A stretch of 54,412 nt of DNA. Source: Bacteroidota bacterium (GTDB lineage Bacteria; Bacteroidota; Bacteroidia; UKL13-3). The notes below the pieces were generated by a model. That model saw nothing but the letters and a program-made list of their open reading frames with translations. It was not told the DNA's origin and ran no database searches. The first letter of the stretch is position 1; each line of letters opens with the position of its first letter. The stretch is from positions 1 through 54,412 of the forward strand of contig CANGGG010000012.1 in the NCBI GenBank assembly GCA_947453415.1, in the 5' to 3' direction. A program made the position numbers and the translations under genes. Positions 2,534 through 43,945 of this stretch are shown here, in pieces.

Positions 2534-3748
2534 CTATTTACTATAAACAGAAATAATATTTTTAGTAAATAAAATAACATTTTCCTTGTTAATATAAGTC
2601 CAAAATGGTTTTTGGAAATCAGGAAAGGTATATACGATATTTCTAATTCCCATTTTTAAATCAATGCTATTTATTTGACTTTGATTGGTTTCAAAAATTT
2701 GATTATTTCCAAATTGAAAATTTTGTGAATTTTTAAATTTCACAGTTTTAATATAAGCAGTAAATACATCAAAAAGCAAGCAGATGCTATCATTGCAAAG
2801 CATAATTTGGTTGGTATTATCTGATAAAAGGTTAGGGATAAAATCGGTTTGTGTAAATTGTTTTATGTTGCCACTACTCTGACTTAAAATGCCATCTTTT
2901 GAAATTTTTTTCAATTGTAAATCACCCAAATCAAATACCCAAATTCCATTGTCAAAACTCCTAGCTATGGCAGCTGCTTGGGTAATATTTAGTTTTGTTA
3001 AATCTAATTCACCTCGGTATGCAAGGTTATTATCTAATAAAAGCACCCTATTTATTTCTTTATAAAACACATAAATCTCCATTGGATTACTCACATCTAA
3101 GCTGCTAATATTTCCATTATAATTATAGTTTAAAGTAGCCAAAACTTTTCCTGAATAATTATACTTATACAATTGATTGGTAGGCGAAACAATGTATAAA
3201 TTCCCCATATCATCGGCTTGAACAAACTTAGCATTAACCGAAAATTCTGAAACTAATTTTGAGCTATCGAGTACGGTTTGTGCGATGCAATAAGAGGAAA
3301 TAAAGATGAATGATAAAGTATGAAGTATGAATAGAAATTTTGGATTTTGGATTTTGAATTTTAGATGTTGAATTGTAACTTCATTGCGAGCAAAGCGTGG
3401 CAATCTCAAAAAAAATAATTGTAGGGATTGCTTCGTGCCTCGCAATGACGAATCATTTCGAATTTCATTTACATTTCGCAATTCGTATTCCGCATTCCGC
3501 ACTTCATTTACACTTCGCACTTCGTACTCCGCACTTCGCATTTTGAAAATAACGTCATTGAGAGCAAAGCGTGGCAATCTCAAAAAAAATAATTGTGGTG
3601 ATTGCTTCGTGCCTCGCAATAACGAATCACTTTGAATTTCATTTAAATTCCGCACTTCGTACTCCGCACTTCGCACTTCGTACACATTTACATTTCGCAC
3701 TTCGTACTTCGCATTCCGCATTTCGTTATAGCTATTTTTGATAAACAT
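2534..3748 (-). CDS. Exported propeller-like protein with repeat-derived N-terminal extension
   Basis: The conserved-looking part starts at a hydrophobic leader (FLFILHTLSFIF...YCIAQ, nt about 3285-3350). It continues for roughly 265 residues with repeated strand-rich segments such as GNLYIVSPTNQLYKY and GIWVFDLGDLQLKK, suggesting a beta-propeller or PQQ/NHL-like fold of unknown function. The frame stays open upstream through about 350 nt of intergenic-type repeats. These translate into repeated RGTKQS...LRLPRFA and EVRSAEYEVRN-like runs. The chosen ATG (3748) overlaps the lpxH stop codon, so translation could be coupled. An earlier ATG at 3796 lies inside lpxH. There is no ATG, GTG or TTG directly before the leader. 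Either the repeats inserted in frame inside an old 5' end, or translation begins at a rare codon. Confident that the leader-to-stop part is a gene, unsure of its start. Confidence 0.6.
   Translation of the reverse strand: MFIKNSYNEMRNAKYEVRNVNVYEVRSAEYEVRNLNEIQSDSLLRGTKQSPQLFFLRLPRFALNDVIFKMRSAEYEVRSVNEVRNAEYELRNVNEIRNDSSLRGTKQSLQLFFLRLPRFARNEVTIQHLKFKIQNPKFLFILHTLSFIFISSYCIAQTVLDSSKLVSEFSVNAKFVQADDMGNLYIVSPTNQLYKYNYSGKVLATLNYNYNGNISSLDVSNPMEIYVFYKEINRVLLLDNNLAYRGELDLTKLNITQAAAIARSFDNGIWVFDLGDLQLKKISKDGILSQSSGNIKQFTQTDFIPNLLSDNTNQIMLCNDSICLLFDVFTAYIKTVKFKNSQNFQFGNNQIFETNQSQINSIDLKMGIRNIVYTFPDFQKPFWTYINKENVILFTKNIISVYSK
3381..3735. repeat. Tandem block of two intergenic repeats (174-bp period)
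   Basis: Two copies of a roughly 75-bp element lie at 3381-3456 and 3555-3629. Each starts with cattgcgag or a variant and ends with ctcgcaatg or a variant, which are complementary, so each can fold into a long imperfect hairpin. Between and after them are runs made of the words ttcgcacttcgtac and ccgcacttcgcattt. The copies are exactly 174 bp apart, 58 codons, which keeps the overlapping minus-strand frame open. The element resembles dispersed palindromic repeats that I recall from several bacterial phyla; that is recollection, not a search. Confidence 0.8.
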
Positions 3749-4529
3749 AGTTAGCCGTTTCATCAGTATAACTTTTAAGTTCAGCGCCATTTTCATCTAT
3801 TGAAAAATAGGTATTGTATTCCATCCAATCGCCTAAATTAACATAATTACTTTTTTCATTTAATTCATAAATCATGGGTAAATGACGGTGTCCAAACACA
3901 AATAAATCAATGTGTTCGAGTGCTAAAATATTTCGAGCATGAATAATTAAATGTTCTTCTTCATGGTAAAAAGCATGGTTATCGCTGTAGGTTTTTTCTT
4001 TGCTTTTATGGCTAAACCAATTGGCTATGCCAATACCAATATTTGGATGAAAAAAAGCAAACATTCGTTGGAATAAATAATTACGATAAACAGCTAAAAT
4101 AAATTTGAAAACTATTTGCTTTGGCCCTAATCCATCACCATGACCAATGTATAGTTTTTTGCCTGCTATGGTTTTAATAATTGGTTTAGAATAAACCTTA
4201 CAACCAATTTCGTTTTCTAAATAACCAAATTGCCATAAATCGTGGTTTCCATGAAAAACGTGAACAGGAATTCCCTCATCAACAAATTCTGCAAGTTTGG
4301 CCAATAAGCGTACAAAACCTTTGGGAACAACGGTTTTATATTCAAACCAAAAATCGAAAATATCGCCAACAATATACAGTTCATGGCAATTGTTTTTGAT
4401 AGCATTTAAAAAAGAAATGATTCGTTTTTCTCTAATTAAACTTTCCTCCAAATTAGGAATGCCCAAATGGAAATCAGAAATAAAATAGGTTTTCTTTTGC
4501 ACTTGTTTAGTCTTTTGTAGTATCGTCAA
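3732..4529 (-). CDS. lpxH: UDP-2,3-diacylglucosamine diphosphatase LpxH
   Basis: It cleaves UDP-2,3-diacylglucosamine to lipid X and UMP in lipid A synthesis, as a peripheral enzyme on the inner membrane. The calcineurin-like metal motifs are all present in order: DFHLG near residue 20, GDIFDFWFEY near 55, GNHDLW near 95, GHGDG near 130 and GHRHLP near 215. A GDWMEYNTY end is typical of LpxH. The length of 265 is close to the family norm. Its start overlaps the 3' end of the upstream LUD-domain gene by 23 bases, and its stop overlaps the next candidate start, so the three could be co-transcribed. A second LpxH-like phosphoesterase lies at 15222-16064; this one keeps the FWFEY segment typical of true LpxH. 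Confidence 0.85.
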   Translation of the reverse strand: MTILQKTKQVQKKTYFISDFHLGIPNLEESLIREKRIISFLNAIKNNCHELYIVGDIFDFWFEYKTVVPKGFVRLLAKLAEFVDEGIPVHVFHGNHDLWQFGYLENEIGCKVYSKPIIKTIAGKKLYIGHGDGLGPKQIVFKFILAVYRNYLFQRMFAFFHPNIGIGIANWFSHKSKEKTYSDNHAFYHEEEHLIIHARNILALEHIDLFVFGHRHLPMIYELNEKSNYVNLGDWMEYNTYFSIDENGAELKSYTDETANYVYQK

Positions 4530-27872: not shown

Positions 27873-28157
27873 ATGCAATTAGAAGATAGAAATAAAATAA
27901 TTGAGCCAATTAAGAATTTGCTTTTAAAAAGTAACATTACTAAAGCTGCTTTATTTGGTTCATTTGCTCGAAATGAAGATGACTATAATGACATAGATAT
28001 TTTGATTGAAACCAATAATCACACGTTCTTCGATTTGTTAAAACTAGAAACCGAATTAGGTAAATTATTAAATATTAAAGTTGATTTGGTAGAATACAAT
28101 GCTTTGAAAAATTCAATGAAAGAAAGTGTAATCAAGGATTCTATTGTAATTATATGA
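27873..28157 (+). CDS. mntA: MntA-like nucleotidyltransferase antitoxin
   Basis: This minimal nucleotidyltransferase is the antitoxin of a HEPN/MNT system. The motif is LFGSFARNEDDYNDIDILIE at about residues 27-46, giving GS-X9-DxD with Ser30, Asp40 and Asp42. In characterised pairs MntA polyAMPylates a Tyr in the HepT active site and so disarms it. The length of 94 is typical. It overlaps hepT by four bases (ATGA), so the pair is translationally coupled. Confidence 0.88.
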   Translation: MQLEDRNKIIEPIKNLLLKSNITKAALFGSFARNEDDYNDIDILIETNNHTFFDLLKLETELGKLLNIKVDLVEYNALKNSMKESVIKDSIVII

Positions 28158-28492
28158 GCAAAAGAAGTGACCAAGTTTATATTCAAGATATTGCTGAAAG
28201 TATAGATGCAATTTTGAATTATGTAGGAGAAACTACAGAATATGAATATTGTACAAACATGATGATGCAAGATGCCGTTAACAGAAGATTTGAAATAATT
28301 GGGGAAGCGGCAAAAAATATTACCGAAGTTTATAAAAATGAACATCCCCATATTGAATGGCAGTTAATAAAAGCAATGAGAAATAAATTAGCACATGAGT
28401 ATTTTGGAATATCAAATTCCACCATATACAAAACCATTATTGCTGATTTGCCTATTCTAAAAGAAAAAATAGATAAGTTGATTTTGAATTGA
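28154..28492 (+). CDS. hepT: HepT-like HEPN-domain RNase toxin
   Basis: This is an all-helical DUF86/HepT protein. The active-site motif is R76-NKLA-H81-E-Y83, exactly the R-X4-H-X-Y pattern, in which Arg and His cut RNA and Tyr is the AMPylation target of MntA. RRFEIIGEAAKNI near residue 44 is also a family hallmark. The length of 112 is typical. An intrinsic terminator follows, shared with the converging E2 gene. The known members cleave tRNA or mRNA; the target here is unknown. Confidence 0.9.
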   Translation: MSKRSDQVYIQDIAESIDAILNYVGETTEYEYCTNMMMQDAVNRRFEIIGEAAKNITEVYKNEHPHIEWQLIKAMRNKLAHEYFGISNSTIYKTIIADLPILKEKIDKLILN

Positions 28493-30008: not shown

Positions 30009-31013
30009 TTAAACTGTTAGCAAACTACAGCCTCTCACATCACTATAATCAATCCTTCCAAGCACTTCAAATTGATTTTTTTCATTTGAAGAAGGGATTA
30101 TTTTTCCAATATCTTGTGTTTGAATAAAGCAACATGAATTAATATTTGCTAAATCTATTACATTGATAACACCACTTTTGTTTTGGTTTACAAAACTAAA
30201 AGGATCTGTATTATCACTAATTTTTATTTTCATCCAAGGGGCACATTCAAATATTCCATCGCCATAGCTGTATGCCTGACTTAATAACTCTGTCATGCCA
30301 TATTCCGAATGAATTTTATTTACTCCAAAACCATTTTGTAAAATTGCATGAATTTCTGATCGAATCATTTCTTTTTTTCTTCCTTTCATTCCGCCAGTTT
30401 CCATCACTATTAATTCTGGAAAATTTATTTGAAATTCATGTGCAAAATCCAATAATCCAAAAGTTGCACCTAGTAGAATTGTTTTTTGATTTTTTGATTT
30501 TAGTTCATTCAAAACATCAAATAATTGTGCATGATTGTGCAAATAAAAATTACTTAATGAATGTTCACTTGCTTTTATTAATTCGTCACACATCAAAATC
30601 AATGAGGAGCCATTTCGTTCCAAATAGGAGGGTAGTAATGCTAAAAAACAGTAATCTTTTATGGGTCCGTAAAAAATTTCGAATGCTGTAAAAAACGATT
30701 TTTGGTAAATTGTTAAGTCAGTTACAAAGTGTTTGCTTTCGCCTTGTCCGCTTGTACTACTGCTATAAAATACTATTTCTTCATTGGCAGCGCCACAAAT
30801 AATTTTTTTAGATTTAAAAAACTGAATGGGTAAAAAAGGTATTTGTGCTAAATTGGTAACGCTTTTATTATGGAATATATTATTAAGTTTGCAATATTGT
30901 TGGTAAACTAAATTAGTGTTGAATTGGTAAGCAAATGCTTGCAATGCTAGTTCATCAAAATTATTAATATTTGATTTGAAAATGGATTTTATAAAATCGT
31001 TTGTATGGAACAT
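30009..31013 (-). CDS. LuxE-like acyl-protein synthetase
   Basis: The protein belongs to the LuxE/acyl-protein synthetase group of adenylating enzymes (fatty acid to acyl-AMP, then to a protein thiol). Seen are the ATP-loop-like FYSSSTSGQGESKHF, a GGMKGRKKEMIRSE segment and HSEYGMTELLSQAYS near the adenylation core. The end GRIDYSDVRGCSLL resembles the usual LuxE end. Bacteroidota have many such genes without lux partners, some in polysaccharide or lipid-modification clusters. I start it at ATG 31013 (MFHTNDFIKS), where family members usually begin. A start 99 bases upstream would overlap the whole leader of the opposite gene. The chosen ATG overlaps the divergent start codon at 31012 (CATG). 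Confidence 0.75.
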   Translation of the reverse strand: MFHTNDFIKSIFKSNINNFDELALQAFAYQFNTNLVYQQYCKLNNIFHNKSVTNLAQIPFLPIQFFKSKKIICGAANEEIVFYSSSTSGQGESKHFVTDLTIYQKSFFTAFEIFYGPIKDYCFLALLPSYLERNGSSLILMCDELIKASEHSLSNFYLHNHAQLFDVLNELKSKNQKTILLGATFGLLDFAHEFQINFPELIVMETGGMKGRKKEMIRSEIHAILQNGFGVNKIHSEYGMTELLSQAYSYGDGIFECAPWMKIKISDNTDPFSFVNQNKSGVINVIDLANINSCCFIQTQDIGKIIPSSNEKNQFEVLGRIDYSDVRGCSLLTV

Positions 31014-31560
31014 GAATGGCAAAATTGCTTTTGTGTTTATTGTTTTTTTATTGCTGCTTAACAGCTGCAAAGAAAATGAAATATATGCTAACATTCCGCT
31101 TATTGAATACAAAAGAGTTTATTTTTTGCAAAGTGACGGAAAAGACTCTTTAATGAAATTAGTTTTTTCGTTCAAAGATGGAGATGGAGATATTGGCTTT
31201 GCTGATGCTGACACTTCTGCACCTTTTAACCCATTATTTGATTCAGATGGAAAGTTGTTAAACAAGTATTATTATAACTGTTATGTTGAATATAAAGAGA
31301 AAATAGATGGTGTTTATTGGCCATATATTCCTCCAGGAAAAACCGATACTTTTTGTTATAAATTTAGGGTTCAAAATTTAACACCTGAAGGCCGACATAA
31401 AGCCATTAGGGGTGAATTAGAAATGGATATAAATATTAGTGATGGGCAGCGACTTTCTATGTTTGATACCGATACCATTATATATAATATTTATATATAT
31501 GATAGAGCACTTAATAGGAGCAATATAATAGAAACGCCCCCAATAGTTTGGAGGCGTTAA
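31012..31560 (+). CDS. Lipoprotein of unknown function
   Basis: From ATG 31012 the protein begins MNGKIAFVFIVFLLLLNSCK, a short lipoprotein leader with the lipobox Cys at residue 19. The remaining 160 residues hold a short acidic calcium-loop-like stretch, FKDGDGDIGFADAD, and strand-rich sequence ending in a MDINISDGQR segment. I do not recognise a named family, although GDGDIGF followed by DTSAPFNPLFD is common in Bacteroidota surface lipoproteins. An in-frame ATG at 30976 is less likely because it would put 12 polar residues before the leader. A hairpin (aacgccccc/ggaggcgtt, 31532-31557) covers the last codons but has no T run. Confidence 0.72.
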   Translation: MNGKIAFVFIVFLLLLNSCKENEIYANIPLIEYKRVYFLQSDGKDSLMKLVFSFKDGDGDIGFADADTSAPFNPLFDSDGKLLNKYYYNCYVEYKEKIDGVYWPYIPPGKTDTFCYKFRVQNLTPEGRHKAIRGELEMDINISDGQRLSMFDTDTIIYNIYIYDRALNRSNIIETPPIVWRR

Positions 31561-37008: not shown

Positions 37009-37977
37009 ATGAAAAAATTCCTTCTATTATTGTTTTTATTCATTGCATTCATGCAATTAAATACTGCTAAAGCAGCTGAAGTAATTGTGCCACCCGATAC
37101 TGTTAAAGTAGGCGTTTATTTTATCAGTTTGCACGATATTGATTTTAGGCAAAAGGAATATACAGTTCGGTTTTGGCTGTGGTTTAGGTATAAAAACAAG
37201 GCTTTCGATTTTGCTAAGAATGTAGAAGTTCCCAATGCCAAATCAATTGAAAATACCGACAACTATACCGATACTGCAAACGGTGAAGTATTTACCCTCA
37301 TGAAAATGAAATGTGTAATGAAAGAATCGTGGGAAGTTCAAAATTATCCATTCGATAAACAGCAGTTAGAAATTCATATTGAAAATTCACAATTCGACTC
37401 CCGTAGTTTGATTTTTGTAGCCGATACTGTGGGCGAACATTTTGATCCAGCTTTAACCATTGCAGGTTGGAATATCAGTAATATCATTGAAAAAACAGGC
37501 TTGCAAACTTATGAAACTACCTTTGGTGATTTAACTTTAAAAGAAGCCAAATCGAGTTATGCATCCTTTAAAGTTGATGTGTTTATAGATAGAAATGCTT
37601 GGGGATTATTCTTTAAATTATTCTTGTGTATGTATGTTTCATTTTTTATTTCATACATGTGCTTTTATATTCATGCCGATAGCATGGAATCACGCTTTGG
37701 ACTCAGCGTAGGTTCACTGTTTGCCGCAGTTGGTAACAAATACATCATCGATTCTATTTTACCTGAATCGTCCACTTTTACCTTGGTCGATTCCTTGCAT
37801 GCTTTTACTTTTATTGCCATTTTAGGCACCATTATTTTAAGTGTTTATTCGTTAAAATTAGCCAACGAAAACCAATTAGAAAGAGCCAATAAATTAGACC
37901 ATAAAGCAGCGCGCATTATGCTAATTACTTATTTGTTTTTAAATATAATCTTCATTTTAAAAGCAATCTTTTTTTAA
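37009..37977 (+). CDS. Pentameric ligand-gated ion channel homologue
   Basis: The protein has a signal peptide (about 22 residues), an extracellular beta domain and four C-terminal transmembrane helices. The ligand-binding-type domain has VKVGVYFISLHDIDF, VRFWLWFRYKN and SWEVQNYPFDKQQLEI, the last matching the loop region WxxxxFPFDxQ that marks Cys-loop receptors. The two loop Cys are absent, as in other bacterial members such as GLIC and ELIC. Predicted helices are M1 near WGLFFKLFLCMYVSFFISY, M2 near RFGLSVGSLFAAVGNKYII, M3 near HAFTFIAILGTIILSVYSL and M4 near RIMLITYLFLNIIFILKAIF. Its length of 322 fits the family. Ligand and ion selectivity are unknown. The S8 protease gene begins 12 bases after its stop. 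Confidence 0.85.
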   Translation: MKKFLLLLFLFIAFMQLNTAKAAEVIVPPDTVKVGVYFISLHDIDFRQKEYTVRFWLWFRYKNKAFDFAKNVEVPNAKSIENTDNYTDTANGEVFTLMKMKCVMKESWEVQNYPFDKQQLEIHIENSQFDSRSLIFVADTVGEHFDPALTIAGWNISNIIEKTGLQTYETTFGDLTLKEAKSSYASFKVDVFIDRNAWGLFFKLFLCMYVSFFISYMCFYIHADSMESRFGLSVGSLFAAVGNKYIIDSILPESSTFTLVDSLHAFTFIAILGTIILSVYSLKLANENQLERANKLDHKAARIMLITYLFLNIIFILKAIFF

Positions 37978-37989
37978 AAATAAAAATCC

Positions 37990-40170
37990 ATGAATAAGCA
38001 TTTTCCTATTTTATTTATTTCTTTTTTTGTTGCGTTGCAATGTATTGCTCAGCAACAAAAATTATCGCCTATAGCACAAATTTATTTGAATAAAAATAGT
38101 GGTTTAAATAAAGCTGAATATAACATCAGCGCATTGGTTCAGGTAAATGAAAACATATCAGAAAATGACTTAAAAGCAAAAGGAATATTGGTGCAAACCA
38201 AAGCCGGAAATATTTGGAGTGTAATGATTCCAATGCATGTTTTAAACGATATTTCAAATATAAAAGGCATTGATTATTTGGAAACTTCATTGGCTGCTAA
38301 GCCACAAATGCAAGACACCGATTGGATTCAAACCAAAACTAATTTAGTGCATCAAGGCTATAATTTGCCAAAGGCATACAAAGGAAATGGAGTAATAGTT
38401 GGCATTATCGACATTGGTTTTGATTATAACCATCCAGCTTTTTACGATGAACAAGGTAATTGTAGAATTATGCGTGTTTGGGAGCAAAACAAAACAGGAA
38501 CGCCACCAATAGGTTATAATTATGGCAATGAATTAACTAATTCTACTAGCATAAAAGCAGCCATCACCGATAGAATTTCTGACTCGCACGGAACCATGGT
38601 GGCAGGTATTGCGGCTGGAACTGGAATATTAAGTAAAGGAAATGCAAACCGAGGAATGGCACCAAATGCAGAGTTGGTTTTGGTGGGTTTGTATTACGGA
38701 CAAGAAACTTTTTTAGATGATAAAAATGTTTCAGCACCTTCATTTGTAGATGCCATGAATTATATTTACAAATACGCTGAATCGGTAAATAAACCTGCGG
38801 TAATCAATATAAGTTGGGGACATCATGGTGGTCCGCACGATGGAACTTCATTGCTTGACAAAGCCATTGAAAATTTAACAGGCGCTGGAAAAATATTGGT
38901 AAATGCTGCAGGTAACGAAGGTAAAACGCAATTGCATTTGCTGCAAAAATTAGCGAACGATACATTTTATACTTATAATTATTTTAACAGAAAAATTTAT
39001 CCATACGAAAAAAATTTAACTGATTTTTGGGGCAGCCCCAACTCAGATTTTGCAGTGCAAATCAGGTTAACAGATACCTTACAAAATGTGTTGGCAGCTA
39101 GTAATTTTATCAGTTCTTCCAGCAATCAATTAACCAGTGGTGTATTGGTAAATGGAATTGATTCATTGACATTTTCGTTTGCTTGCCAAGCAAAAAACAT
39201 CAACAACAACAAACCAAATATTTTTGTAAACTATCATAATACAAACCGTGCAAAGTATTTTGTTTCCTATGCTTTTACTTCCAATAATACTGATTTACAC
39301 GCTTGGAATTGTGGCTACGAATGGTCGAAAGGTTATCCATTATTTTTGGCCAATATTCCAGGACAACCAATCAAATCAAATTATATTAGTGGTGATAATA
39401 AATTTACCATTGGTGAATCAGGTGCCAATAGCAATGCAAGTTTAGCGGTTGGGTCATATAATTCAAATGTGGCTTGGCAAAACTATTGGGGAAATGTAAA
39501 AACGGTGGATGATATTAGTCAAAAAGATACCATTACTGGCTTTTCAAGCAGAGGCCCAACTACTGATAATAGAACCAAGCCCGACATTACCGGACCTGGT
39601 TATTTTGTAGGCGGACCTGCAAGTAGTTTAACTCCATTTAACGATGCAGATATTACCGATACCTTTCAAGTAAATGGAAAACGTTTTGATTATATCATGT
39701 CGGCTGGAACTTCATTTGCTGCACCTTGTGTTACTGGAGCCATAGCGTTAATGCTGCAAGCCGACCACCAATTAACGCCAAGCAAAGTATTAACCATGCT
39801 CAAAAATTCGGCAAGAGTAGATGATAAAACAGGAGTCATTCCAAGCAGTGGAAGTAACAATTGGGGTTGGGGTAAAATAGATACTTATGAAGCTGTAAAA
39901 TTAGCTTTTGCTACCGCAATCAATGAACATGATAATGTTGGAAATAAAACCATTATTTATCCAAATCCTTTTACAAATAGCATTCAATTTTTAAACAATC
40001 AAGAACCCTTGTGGGTGGAGATTTATAGTGTGTCTGGGCAATTACTTTTCGGTAAAAACATATTGCCGAACGAAAGTATATTATTATCACATTTAGCTAC
40101 TGGAATTTATTTGCTAAAAGCAAGCAACGAACAAGGAGGAATTCAAATGAATAAATTGGTAAAGTATTAA
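37990..40170 (+). CDS. Subtilisin-like (S8) serine protease with T9SS sorting domain
   Basis: It is a secreted protease. The signal peptide ends near QCIAQ. The catalytic triad is Asp141 (GIIDIGFDYNHPAF), His200 (DSHGTMVAGIAAG) and Ser575 (AGTSFAAPCVTG). The Asn of the oxyanion hole is in NAAGNEG. A beta insert of about 200 residues separates that site from the Ser, as in many Bacteroidota subtilases. The C-terminal 75 residues (IYPNPFTNSIQF...LATGIYLLKAS) are a T9SS sorting domain, so SprA is the exporter. Only 12 bases separate it from the channel gene upstream, so the two are probably one transcript. A terminator hairpin follows. Confidence 0.9.
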   Translation: MNKHFPILFISFFVALQCIAQQQKLSPIAQIYLNKNSGLNKAEYNISALVQVNENISENDLKAKGILVQTKAGNIWSVMIPMHVLNDISNIKGIDYLETSLAAKPQMQDTDWIQTKTNLVHQGYNLPKAYKGNGVIVGIIDIGFDYNHPAFYDEQGNCRIMRVWEQNKTGTPPIGYNYGNELTNSTSIKAAITDRISDSHGTMVAGIAAGTGILSKGNANRGMAPNAELVLVGLYYGQETFLDDKNVSAPSFVDAMNYIYKYAESVNKPAVINISWGHHGGPHDGTSLLDKAIENLTGAGKILVNAAGNEGKTQLHLLQKLANDTFYTYNYFNRKIYPYEKNLTDFWGSPNSDFAVQIRLTDTLQNVLAASNFISSSSNQLTSGVLVNGIDSLTFSFACQAKNINNNKPNIFVNYHNTNRAKYFVSYAFTSNNTDLHAWNCGYEWSKGYPLFLANIPGQPIKSNYISGDNKFTIGESGANSNASLAVGSYNSNVAWQNYWGNVKTVDDISQKDTITGFSSRGPTTDNRTKPDITGPGYFVGGPASSLTPFNDADITDTFQVNGKRFDYIMSAGTSFAAPCVTGAIALMLQADHQLTPSKVLTMLKNSARVDDKTGVIPSSGSNNWGWGKIDTYEAVKLAFATAINEHDNVGNKTIIYPNPFTNSIQFLNNQEPLWVEIYSVSGQLLFGKNILPNESILLSHLATGIYLLKASNEQGGIQMNKLVKY

Positions 40171-40191
40171 TTAAACAAATCCCCAACAACT

Positions 40192-40218
40192 CGTTAATTT
40201 TTAAATTAACGGGCTTTT
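40192..40218 (+). terminator. Intrinsic terminator after the S8 protease gene
   Basis: The stem CGTTAATTT-tt-AAATTAACG (40192-40211) is followed by ggc and six Ts. It separates two converging genes. Confidence 0.75.
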
Positions 40219-41121
40219 TTATTGATTGTTAGGAGTTACAATTCCATCTTTTAATTTATGTAATTTCATATTTACCAATATTTCATGTAAGGTTTCGGCT
40301 GCTAAACCATGCAATACCAAACGATATGCTGCGCTGTATGTAGTTTCTGGCACCATAGGATGTTTATTATTTACTAAGCCCAAATGTCCAGGTGTGCCTA
40401 AAATTTGAGCAGTATAAATAGCTATTGTTTCATCTAATTGTAATGAATTTGAGGCCCTCACAAAATCGTTTGAGGTTAAAAACAATTGATAAAACGGAGT
40501 AAACAATTCTATTGCAGACCTTAAATCTAAAATATTGGTCCATTTGTCAGGAAACTCAATGTGATTGAATTGATCTTCAGATATCATATCTAAATTAGGT
40601 GGTTTTTTTCCAATAATTGAAATGTTTTTTTCTTTCAATTGTTTGTTAAGTTTTATTACAAAATTGTATAAATTTAAATCATGTTTTAAAAATAAATCAT
40701 CTTTAATGTCTTCAAAATTATAAGGCTTCAGTGGGCTCGTATTAATTTCAATATTTTCAATATTTTTAGCAATAAACTCCATGATTTCTGAACCTACATG
40801 GAAATGACGAAATATAAGTAAATTGGCATCTTTACTCACAAATTTTCTTAAACCCCACGATAATATTAGGTGTAATATTTTTGATGAATTAATCAGTTTT
40901 GGAAAAAAGAATTTGAAAATATGAATAAAGAACATCAATATTTTTGAAAACACTTTGATTACTGGTAATAAATATTGAGTTGACTTTGAGTCATTATCTC
41001 GCATTAAACAAAGTTTGGTGGTATCGTTAATTGGTATACTTAAATCGAGGTACATAGCCAACCAAGGATTTGGATCTCTTTCATCGTGGTCATTAAACTT
41101 TGTATTTTCGTTGTTTTTCAT
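40219..41121 (-). CDS. Unrecognised protein, third gene of the ketosynthase operon
   Basis: It is 300 residues with no family I can name surely; it resembles sequences known only as a DUF (I think DUF6999, from memory). A polar head (PNPWLAMYLDLSIPINDTTK) is followed by a strongly hydrophobic segment (VFSKILMFFIHIFKFFFPKL, about residues 57-76), then a His-rich spot FRHFHVGSE (His106, His108, Glu112). The C-terminal half has SAAYRLVLHGLAAETLHEIL. The His/Glu pattern might bind metal. It lies 33 bases after the ketosynthase gene on the same strand, so it likely works with it on a lipid substrate. Its stop overlaps the base region of the converging terminator. Confidence 0.7.
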   Translation of the reverse strand: MKNNENTKFNDHDERDPNPWLAMYLDLSIPINDTTKLCLMRDNDSKSTQYLLPVIKVFSKILMFFIHIFKFFFPKLINSSKILHLILSWGLRKFVSKDANLLIFRHFHVGSEIMEFIAKNIENIEINTSPLKPYNFEDIKDDLFLKHDLNLYNFVIKLNKQLKEKNISIIGKKPPNLDMISEDQFNHIEFPDKWTNILDLRSAIELFTPFYQLFLTSNDFVRASNSLQLDETIAIYTAQILGTPGHLGLVNNKHPMVPETTYSAAYRLVLHGLAAETLHEILVNMKLHKLKDGIVTPNNQ

Positions 41122-41154
41122 ATTTTTTGTAACAATTTAAATCAATTTATATTA

Positions 41155-43005
41155 CTAATAATTACCAATTTCTTCCAATTGAATTTTATATAATTTTGCT
41201 GTAGTTTTTGCAGTTTTAGCAATTTTTTTAGCAATTTCTAAATTCATACTTGGGTGGTTTAAGGCTTCTTCTAGTTTATGAAAATGGTTTTCATCTGCTA
41301 CTCCATGATAAGTAAAAAATGAAACTTGGTCATCGTTCAAATGAAGTTGTTCTTTTATCATTAATCCCCAATAACTAGCTAATCTCTTTCCTATTCCTTC
41401 AATAATAAACATGGCGCCCAATAAATCAACTGGGTTTTGTTTGCTTGCTTGTTGGAACATAAAAGCTGAAAGTGCCATACTTCCAATATTTTTTTCATTG
41501 GTTTGAATGTTAGCTAATTCCTCCCCTAAGTTAACAAAATTACGTTCTAACATTTGATAATCTTTGTGTTCAGCAGCCGTATGTTTAATAAATGCAGAAC
41601 GCAATTCAAATAATTCAATATCAATATTAGATGCCGCTCTGGAAATCCATTGTGAGCCATCAATTACTTGTTGCCTTAAGTCGTGCAATAGCAATTTATA
41701 GTCAGCTAAACTTAGTTTTCCTGCATGTATTTTTGTAACGATTGGTACTTTTAAAAGTTCAGTTTCAAAGTCAATCCATATTTGAGCCAATTGTCTAATT
41801 AACCACTCCGATGTATCAGATTTATTTACAATTAGTTCGGGTGTTTCTACTTTTCTATAAGGAAAGTTTATTTCATTTTTTATATCAGGAGTTTCAACCT
41901 TAAGCTGCATAAACGAAGTAATAAATCTTCCACTTTCAGGCACCATACATAAAATGGTGTCACCTTGTTTTAATTTGCCAGCATACATTAACTCTTCTAA
42001 CATAATAAAAATTGAAGCTGAACCTGTATTTCCTTTTGTAGTTAAATTATTAAACCATTTTTCTTCGGCAATTGCCCCTCCACCTTTTTCCATTAAATCT
42101 TGAATAGGTTTTTTAAATACTTCTGAAGAGTAATGGCAGCAAAGCCAATCAATTTTATCTTTTTTGATTTTACCTTCGTCAATTAATTCAAAATAATGTG
42201 CTACCCCAGTTTGAACCACTTTGTCTAATATTCTTACATCTTGCTGTAAGTTTATTGCTCCTGCTTTTGAAGCATCTTCATAACTAGGGTAATCAAGCCA
42301 AGTTTTTTCCTGTTCATTTTTATTGTCAGTTTTTCCTGTGTACATGCACAATGGAAATTCATTGGCATGTGATTTAATTTCAATCCATTCAATTTTTAAA
42401 GAAATATTCTTTTGACTTTTTTTATTTTCCAATACAAATGCTCCCGCACCATCAGAAAGCATCCATCTTAAAAATTCAGTATCAAAAGGCAATGATTTTA
42501 CTTCTTGAGCCTCAAACCTTGATGATTTAAACATTCTACTTGCAAATTCACTACCTACACAAACAGCATTTTCTTTTTCATCACTTTTTATTTGAGCAAA
42601 TGCATTTTTTAAAGCCATTACACCGCTTGCACAAACACTTTGGAAACTAGCCAATTCGCATCTGTTAAAATCGAGTCCAGCATGAACCATACTAGCAAAG
42701 CCAGGAATTGGCAAATCGCCTTGAGTTGTACCTGAACATAATAATGAAATTTCTTTAGAACGTAATTCGCTTTTAGCAATTGCAGCTTCAATTGCTTTGA
42801 TGGCAAGTTCTGCATTTGAATGCGTGCTTTCTTGTTTTTTATTTAACGCATAATACCTGCTTTTTATACCATTTTGTTTTAAAATGCGAGCTTTTACAAT
42901 ACTATCTTTTCCATTTAATTTACCTAAATAATCTTCCATTTCATCATTTGAAATAGGATTATTGGGTAAAAAAATACCAGCACTAGTTATAAATACATCT
43001 TTCAT
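41155..43005 (-). CDS. StlD/DarB-like beta-ketosynthase fused to a heme-oxygenase-like domain
   Basis: Residues 1 to about 365 form a KAS III-type thiolase fold. The catalytic triad is intact: Cys125 in QSVCASGVMAL, His291 in CCHYSS, Asn326 in KGNTGSAS. RWMLSDGAGAFVLE and NEFPLCMYTG match what I recall of the StlD/DarB ketosynthases that join two acyl chains in dialkylresorcinol and related pathways. Residues about 400-616 are all helical, with His475, Glu479, Glu536, His567, Asp571 and His574 spaced as in heme-oxygenase-like diiron proteins (TENA/PqqC/UndA type). A two-domain length of about 600-650 fits the DarB group, from memory. A DarA-type aromatase is not seen nearby. Its ATG overlaps the stop of the upstream hydroxylase gene (ATGA). 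Confidence 0.8.
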   Translation of the reverse strand: MKDVFITSAGIFLPNNPISNDEMEDYLGKLNGKDSIVKARILKQNGIKSRYYALNKKQESTHSNAELAIKAIEAAIAKSELRSKEISLLCSGTTQGDLPIPGFASMVHAGLDFNRCELASFQSVCASGVMALKNAFAQIKSDEKENAVCVGSEFASRMFKSSRFEAQEVKSLPFDTEFLRWMLSDGAGAFVLENKKSQKNISLKIEWIEIKSHANEFPLCMYTGKTDNKNEQEKTWLDYPSYEDASKAGAINLQQDVRILDKVVQTGVAHYFELIDEGKIKKDKIDWLCCHYSSEVFKKPIQDLMEKGGGAIAEEKWFNNLTTKGNTGSASIFIMLEELMYAGKLKQGDTILCMVPESGRFITSFMQLKVETPDIKNEINFPYRKVETPELIVNKSDTSEWLIRQLAQIWIDFETELLKVPIVTKIHAGKLSLADYKLLLHDLRQQVIDGSQWISRAASNIDIELFELRSAFIKHTAAEHKDYQMLERNFVNLGEELANIQTNEKNIGSMALSAFMFQQASKQNPVDLLGAMFIIEGIGKRLASYWGLMIKEQLHLNDDQVSFFTYHGVADENHFHKLEEALNHPSMNLEIAKKIAKTAKTTAKLYKIQLEEIGNY

Positions 43006-43736
43006 TTTTGTTTTAATGTTTTAAATTTTGAAATGATATGATCAAAAAGTTGAAGAACAAATCCATAATTATCTTTATTTTTATAATGGTGTTCGTTATG
43101 AATTGTACCAAATAGTTTCCAAGAATTTTTAGAACCATTTCCAAATCGGTAATTACAATGACCTGAATAATTTAATAAAATACTTGTTAAAGGATAAATG
43201 GCAATTGAAATAAATGATAAAGGTAAAAATAGAACAATAGTTAATGGAACTGTACTTAATAAAATAGCCTCCAACCAATGAAAGCTATAAACGGAATAAA
43301 CTGTTGGAACTTTTGATTGGTGATGAATATAATGTACATTTTTCATAAAATAACGCAAATGCATCATACGATGAACTATAAAAAAATGCAATTCGTTCCA
43401 CAAATTTAATATCACCAAACCCATAATTATATTTGAAAAGGTATTTGGTAATAGTTGGATTTTTGCAGTTCGTATTAAATATATTATTGGAATAATTGAA
43501 AATCCAAAAATGATGATTGATTTAAATGAATGTTTTATTTCAAAATAAATTTGTTTAGAGCTTACCTCTTTTAGTTCAATTTTTTGGAGTACTTTATTTT
43601 TAAAAAGTAACTGACATACTTTGTTAAATATTGGAGCAATTCCAAAATACAATAAAAAAAAATAGAAAAAACTCAACATGAATAAAGTTGAATATGAATA
43701 TTGGAAAAGAAAATTATCTAATTGTTCTTGTATCAT
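43002..43736 (-). CDS. Sterol desaturase / fatty acid hydroxylase family protein
   Basis: This integral-membrane non-heme diiron enzyme hydroxylates or desaturates lipid chains. The His boxes are at His122-RMM-His126, His135-YI-His138-His139 and His213-NE-His216-His217, with further His193 in NYSGHCNY. Hydrophobic segments lie before and between the boxes, near residues 15-35, 73-95 and 155-190. The length of 244 is typical. It is the first gene of the three-gene operon, overlapping the ketosynthase start by four bases, and probably modifies the same acyl product or precursor. Confidence 0.87.
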   Translation of the reverse strand: MIQEQLDNFLFQYSYSTLFMLSFFYFFLLYFGIAPIFNKVCQLLFKNKVLQKIELKEVSSKQIYFEIKHSFKSIIIFGFSIIPIIYLIRTAKIQLLPNTFSNIIMGLVILNLWNELHFFIVHRMMHLRYFMKNVHYIHHQSKVPTVYSVYSFHWLEAILLSTVPLTIVLFLPLSFISIAIYPLTSILLNYSGHCNYRFGNGSKNSWKLFGTIHNEHHYKNKDNYGFVLQLFDHIISKFKTLKQK

Positions 43737-43901: not shown

Positions 43902-43945
43902 CAAAAAAAAGCCTATTAATGTTTAAATTAATAGGCTTTTTTATT
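43902..43945. terminator. Intrinsic terminator after the cyanophycinase gene
   Basis: The stem aagcctattaat/attaataggctt with loop gtttaa has an A8 run before and a T6 run after. Both strands fit; the minus-strand cyanophycinase gene ends just beyond it. Confidence 0.85.

Follow-up and report, generated by a model that had tools for sequence, protein, structure and literature searches.

A bacterial ketosynthase fused to a heme-oxygenase-like domain and linked to DUF6999: a possible undescribed lipid pathway

Two genes, darA and darB, are sufficient for the formation of a dialkylresorcinol (PMC3992019), and the DarABC pathway proceeds through cyclohexanediones (CHDs) as intermediates (PMC4414361). 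The heme-oxygenase-like HDO enzymes have a textbook metal ligand set designated 3H/3C (PMC13108848). In the locus described here a ketosynthase of the StlD/DarB type and a domain of the HDO/CADD type are joined in a single polypeptide. The locus lies in the window, which is the whole stretch of Bacteroidota DNA that was analyzed, 54,412 nucleotides in length.

Operon organization and distribution

The operon occupies positions 43736-40219 and is encoded entirely on the minus strand. Its first gene (43002-43736, minus strand, 244 aa) specifies a fatty-acid hydroxylase and overlaps the second gene, the fusion (41155-43005, minus strand, 616 aa), by an ATGA at 43002-43005; the third gene (40219-41121, minus strand, 300 aa) begins after a gap of 33 nt. 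On re-examination genes, coordinates and spacing were the same as in an earlier note on this DNA, made from the sequence alone, which had described a three-gene operon. The operon is real and conserved, but the hydroxylase turned out to be accessory, and the obligatory partner of the fusion is the product of the third gene. The note had assigned that product to no recognized family and had remarked on its hydrophobic segment and its histidines; it is a DUF6999 protein (PF22523; 386 bits compared with a cut-off of 27, covering positions 1-275 of 275).

A strong hairpin with a 16-bp stem (43905-43942, no strand, fold z-score -5.9) sets the upstream peptidase S51 gene apart from the operon. On the 3' side of the DUF6999 gene there is a weak terminator-like hairpin (40190-40213, no strand) that matches the consensus only and has a fold z-score of -0.6. 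Convergent with the operon is a plus-strand gene (37990-40167) for a subtilase with a C-terminal sorting tail of the type IX secretion system. The plus-strand gene at 37009-37974 encodes a protein of 322 aa with several hydrophobic segments near the C-terminus and a weak match (24.2 bits, just under the cut-off) to PF02931, the ligand-binding domain of neurotransmitter-gated ion channels; it is a candidate bacterial pentameric channel. Elsewhere in the window, a nucleotidyltransferase/HepT-like gene pair with a 4-base overlap (27873-28489, plus strand) is likely a toxin-antitoxin module, and a 140-nt direct repeat, 88% identical and containing 43-nt sub-repeats (3376-3727), looks like an intergenic repeat element that is read through as part of the minus-strand ORF 2534-3796.

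A scan of GTDB with DUF6999 yielded at least 530 confirmed places, the best 80 of which were analyzed as loci; these come from Bacteroidota, Myxococcota, Bacillota (Paenibacillus) and a single genome of Acidobacteriota. Of the best 80 loci, 77 have the fusion together with DUF6999, which confirms conservation of the gene neighborhood, and neither a chance ORF nor an annotation artefact can account for a pair conserved over four phyla. The order hydroxylase-fusion-DUF6999 was found in 43 of these 80 loci, fusion-DUF6999 in 23, hydroxylase-fusion-desaturase-DUF6999 in nine and fusion-desaturase-DUF6999 in one, the remainder being single oddities or truncations, and the genes mostly overlap or are less than 60 nt apart. 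Three loci are devoid of the fusion. L106 is cut by the end of its contig, and in L096 (9243-10867) and L111 (9992-10681) the DUF6999 match lacks its 5' end; in L096 the hydroxylase gene is broken as well. The latter two exceptions may reflect deletion, pseudogene formation or misassembly. Fusion and DUF6999 also co-occur in samples of genomes. Among 64 genomes of the order, four contain the fusion and the same four contain DUF6999 above cut-off, and in a sample of 396 genomes of the phylum the four with the fusion (G000, G245, G318 and G344) are exactly those with DUF6999. A profile of the heme-oxygenase-like domain, run over 297 Bacteroidota genomes, identified those same four genomes and nothing else, with no stand-alone form of this domain outside the fusions. 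Caulobacter vibrioides, included as a control genome, has matches for both DUF6999 and PF14518.

The loci of Paenibacillus and Myxococcus consist of the fusion and DUF6999 alone, and this pair is the minimal unit. The hydroxylase/desaturase features that had been noticed in the first gene product are those of a membrane protein of the fatty-acid hydroxylase superfamily (PF04116; 70.7 bits, cut-off 31) with the His boxes HFFIVHRMMH, HYIHH and HNEHH. Its gene is located upstream of the fusion in 54 of the 80 loci; it was not found in the other 26, a few of which are cut by contig ends, and it was rejected as an essential partner. In some loci a gene for a membrane fatty acid desaturase (PF00487) is inserted between those for the fusion and DUF6999 (L073, 9156-9968; L098, 9190-9960; L120, 9126-9959). 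Hydroxylase and optional desaturase are accessory.

More than 60 residues are invariant in an alignment of 31 DUF6999 sequences, among them H84, H106, H147, D148, E205, D230, E231, H254, H271, E276 and H279. The conserved His, Asp and Glu residues suggest that DUF6999 is an enzyme, perhaps a metal-dependent one. Its structural model (pLDDT 82) is helical, with a long hydrophobic helix at about residues 46-72, and the protein is probably membrane-associated. A search of the PDB for a solved fold gave no match at an E value below 0.7.

The ketosynthase half and the DarA-DarB loci

Residues 1-372 of the fusion (41890-43005, minus strand) form a KAS III-type ketosynthase that Pfam and NCBIfam assign to the StlD/DarB type. 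The closest solved structure is StlD (5gk0, E value 8e-77), and the ketosynthase half of the AlphaFold model, which is built on only five sequences and of low confidence around the catalytic Cys, matches the StlD fold with a TM score of 0.84 on the target. The KAS III triad Cys125/His291/Asn326, to which the earlier note had drawn attention, is intact and unchanged across 75 fusions. These fusions share 54 conserved positions with 25 DarB proteins, including C125, E153, S184-D185-G186, H291 and N326.

The fusion is nevertheless not a plain DarB, which is ruled out by its profile scores, its fused architecture and the missing DarA. With NF005293, the profile of the StlD/DarB family (curated cut-off 450 bits), the window protein scores 421 bits and four other fusions score 400-431, whereas two true DarBs reach 556 and 600 bits. 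NF053539, the profile of the dialkylresorcinol DarB (cut-off 550 bits), gives 391 bits for the window protein and 354-393 for other fusions, compared with 634 and 691 bits for DarBs. In a ketosynthase tree of 66 rows, obtained by a quick search without bootstrap, 40 fusions form one clade with 100% SH-aLRT support and a stem of 1.32 changes per column; DarBs are separate from them (97%) and StlD also stands apart. The fusion clade has a single origin. In the tree, families of Bacteroidota such as Flavobacteriaceae and Cyclobacteriaceae are interleaved with others, which suggests that the fusion may have spread partly by horizontal transfer. The scores below cut-off together with the long branch indicate that the substrates of the ketosynthase or the ring-closing step may differ from those of DarB.

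Stand-alone DarB loci provide the contrast. None of the 26 examined carries a heme-oxygenase-like domain, and in all 26 DarB adjoins a flavodoxin-like protein of about 304 aa, which is taken to be DarA because it adjoins DarB as expected for the pathway. The domain is therefore not a general property of StlD/DarB proteins; had it been one, the fusion would have lost its novelty. The observation that no DarA is encoded nearby was extended: none lies beside the fusion loci, and a search that picked up four DarA-bearing genomes gave no DarA hit for the window genome, for three congeners with the fusion, or for G318 and G344. DarA is thus absent from six of the seven fusion-bearing genomes tested. 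The seventh, that of Zobellia (G245), has a DarA-DarB pair apart from the fusion; the two systems thus occur together in one genome and are distinct pathways. These findings bear on the proposal that the locus belongs to an ordinary variant of the dialkylresorcinol/flexirubin pathway, in which oxidation and further steps are contributed by genes elsewhere and only the arrangement is new. The StlD-like ketosynthase agrees with such a variant, as does the common occurrence of flexirubins in Bacteroidota (PMC3992019). Arguing against it are the lack of DarA in six fusion genomes, that of the window included, the separate DarA-DarB pair of Zobellia, and the loci of Paenibacillus and Myxococcus, which offer nothing besides fusion and DUF6999; we regard a variant of this kind as quite improbable.

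A second alternative assumes that the ketosynthase yields a linear head-to-head product, a beta-keto acid or ketone as with OleA, which the HDO half converts into a long-chain alkene, ketone or aldehyde by decarboxylation or cleavage in the manner of UndA. HDOs such as UndA do decarboxylate fatty acids (PMC13108848), and loci of just two genes, with no further modifying enzymes, would fit the formation of a simple hydrocarbon. However, the ketosynthase half scores about 260 bits against StlD and about 20 bits against OleA, a distance too great for an OleA-type hydrocarbon synthase as its family, and the core residues of StlD/DarB are retained. Moreover, hydroxylase and desaturase are the only other genes that recur in the best 80 loci, among which no OleBCD-like set was found. 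A linear product is considered unlikely, and formation of a ring by DarB-type condensation is preferred.

The heme-oxygenase-like half

Residues 386-616 (41158-41850, minus strand) were assigned to the heme-oxygenase-like HDO/CADD type by PF14518 (Haem_oxygenas_2), TIGR04305 and hhalign. PF14518 matches all 24 family members at E values up to 0.1, the best being 2.3e-11, and TIGR04305 (CADD) matches 11 of the 24. The window protein itself scores 30.0 bits with the domain alone and 28.0 bits at full length, on either side of the gathering score of 28.9. In hhalign the C-terminal half pairs with CADD-like and other Bacteroidota PF14518 proteins at 94% probability. The AlphaFold model of this half is all-helical, as predicted in the earlier note, with pLDDT values of the block mostly between 76 and 94.

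Ten residues never vary in 75 of 75 fusions: E414, H475, E479, H480, D482, E487, E536, H567, D571 and H574. Columns were assigned by reference to the ligand residues of UndA, CADD and SznF. Of the six ligand positions that are canonical for a diiron site, five are kept. E536 corresponds to the Glu of alpha2, H567-x3-D571-x2-H574 to the HxxxDxxH of alpha3, and E479 to the Glu of alpha1; all of these assignments were the same under three MAFFT settings. The alpha1 His column holds Asp482 in the fusions and His in the aligned PF14518 proteins (NHPELW/SHFELY), and the fusions lack the intervening alpha1 loop of these proteins, as judged from the hhalign pairing and the placement of gaps by MAFFT. 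The diiron-like pattern that had been read from the single sequence is thus largely present, but it departs from the canonical Glu...His of alpha1. The invariant H475 and H480 are close to Asp482, and one of them possibly compensates for the lost His; in the modelled helix 463-492, H475, E479 and D482 (i, i+4, i+7) would share one face. A dimetal site is probable from these residues, though an atypical one that deviates from the 3H/3C set, and the Asp in place of His means that the site may be altered or lost.

The same substitution supports a third alternative, according to which the HDO half is not an oxidase and has a structural, product-binding (TenA/PqqC-like) or cyclase function, while the ketosynthase forms a final or nearly final lipid that is handled by DUF6999. 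The marginal PF14518 scores of the window protein, 28-30 bits, are consistent with this proposal, and the best solved match, 3dde (5e-7), is an uncharacterized protein of heme-oxygenase-like fold. Yet all five retained ligand positions and H475, H480 and D482 are invariant in every fusion, and a merely structural domain would have no need of such invariance. A non-oxidative role seems doubtful, and an oxidase with a modified metal center is favored.

Proposed pathway and comparison with known systems

A pathway with a two-protein core can be proposed, in which DarB-style acyl condensation, oxidation by the HDO domain in place of DarA and an obligatory DUF6999 step are complemented by tailoring through accessory genes; we hold this scheme tentatively, at somewhat less than even chances. 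Substrates, reaction order, product and metal are deduced from gene content and homology. The StlD/DarB-like half would join two acyl thioesters, most likely one beta-ketoacyl and one 2-enoyl unit; since the smallest loci contain only the fusion and DUF6999, the substrates probably come from fatty-acid synthesis. A LuxE-type acyl-protein synthetase (PF04443) is encoded about 9 kb from the operon (30012-31112, minus strand); it could activate acyl chains, and its link to the operon is putative. Condensation of the DarB type would lead to a dialkyl-cyclohexanedione or a related product. The heme-oxygenase-like half, whose dimetal center is probably of the non-heme kind, would then oxidize this product, standing in for the flavodoxin-like aromatase DarA. 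The domain swap is most simply read as an O2-dependent HDO domain, fused to the ketosynthase, having taken over from DarA. DUF6999 would perform the obligatory further step, the hydroxylase and in some loci the desaturase would modify the acyl chains, and the end product would be a resorcinol/quinol-type or otherwise oxidized lipid. In many Bacteroidota tailoring genes are added to the lipid-forming core.

A literature search, with most subscription journals and all preprints outside its coverage, found no ketosynthase-HDO fusion and no mention of DUF6999, and in the 2026 review of HDOs (PMC13108848) neither ketosynthase nor the word "fused" is mentioned. Within that coverage, the lipid pathway for which the earlier note had suggested the operon as a candidate would indeed be undescribed. 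It is conceivable, and only slightly less probable than the contrary, that at least four phyla possess a new lipid pathway that horizontal transfer has helped to distribute. In such a pathway one polypeptide would combine a condensing enzyme with an atypical dimetal HDO, DUF6999 would represent a new family of metal-dependent enzymes, and the product would be an oxidized ring lipid so far unobserved in bacteria. Hundreds of sequenced species carry the locus; their genera include Myxococcus, Paenibacillus, Zobellia and Aquimarina. The locus offers a type of fusion absent from the review and an HDO whose ligand set has been altered in nature, and the minimal two-gene unit is transferable to E. 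coli for direct testing.

Compared with known systems, the ketosynthase half resembles StlD and DarB in its KAS III fold, its Cys/His/Asn triad and the family-conserved positions; it differs in scoring below the curated cut-offs, in the attached heme-oxygenase-like domain, in its own clade of single origin and in the missing DarA partner. Fold and catalytic triad are also common to OleA and FabH-type KAS III enzymes, to which the sequence match is far weaker than to StlD, and OleBCD-like neighbors do not recur. With the HDOs UndA, CADD, SznF and BesC the C-terminal half has in common the all-helical structure, the alpha2 Glu, the alpha3 HxxxDxxH and the matches to PF14518 and TIGR04305, whereas Asp482 in place of the alpha1 His, the additional invariant H475 and H480, and the preceding ketosynthase set it apart. 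The window protein is a full-length member of DUF6999, and what is new is the linkage of this family to a ketosynthase-HDO fusion.
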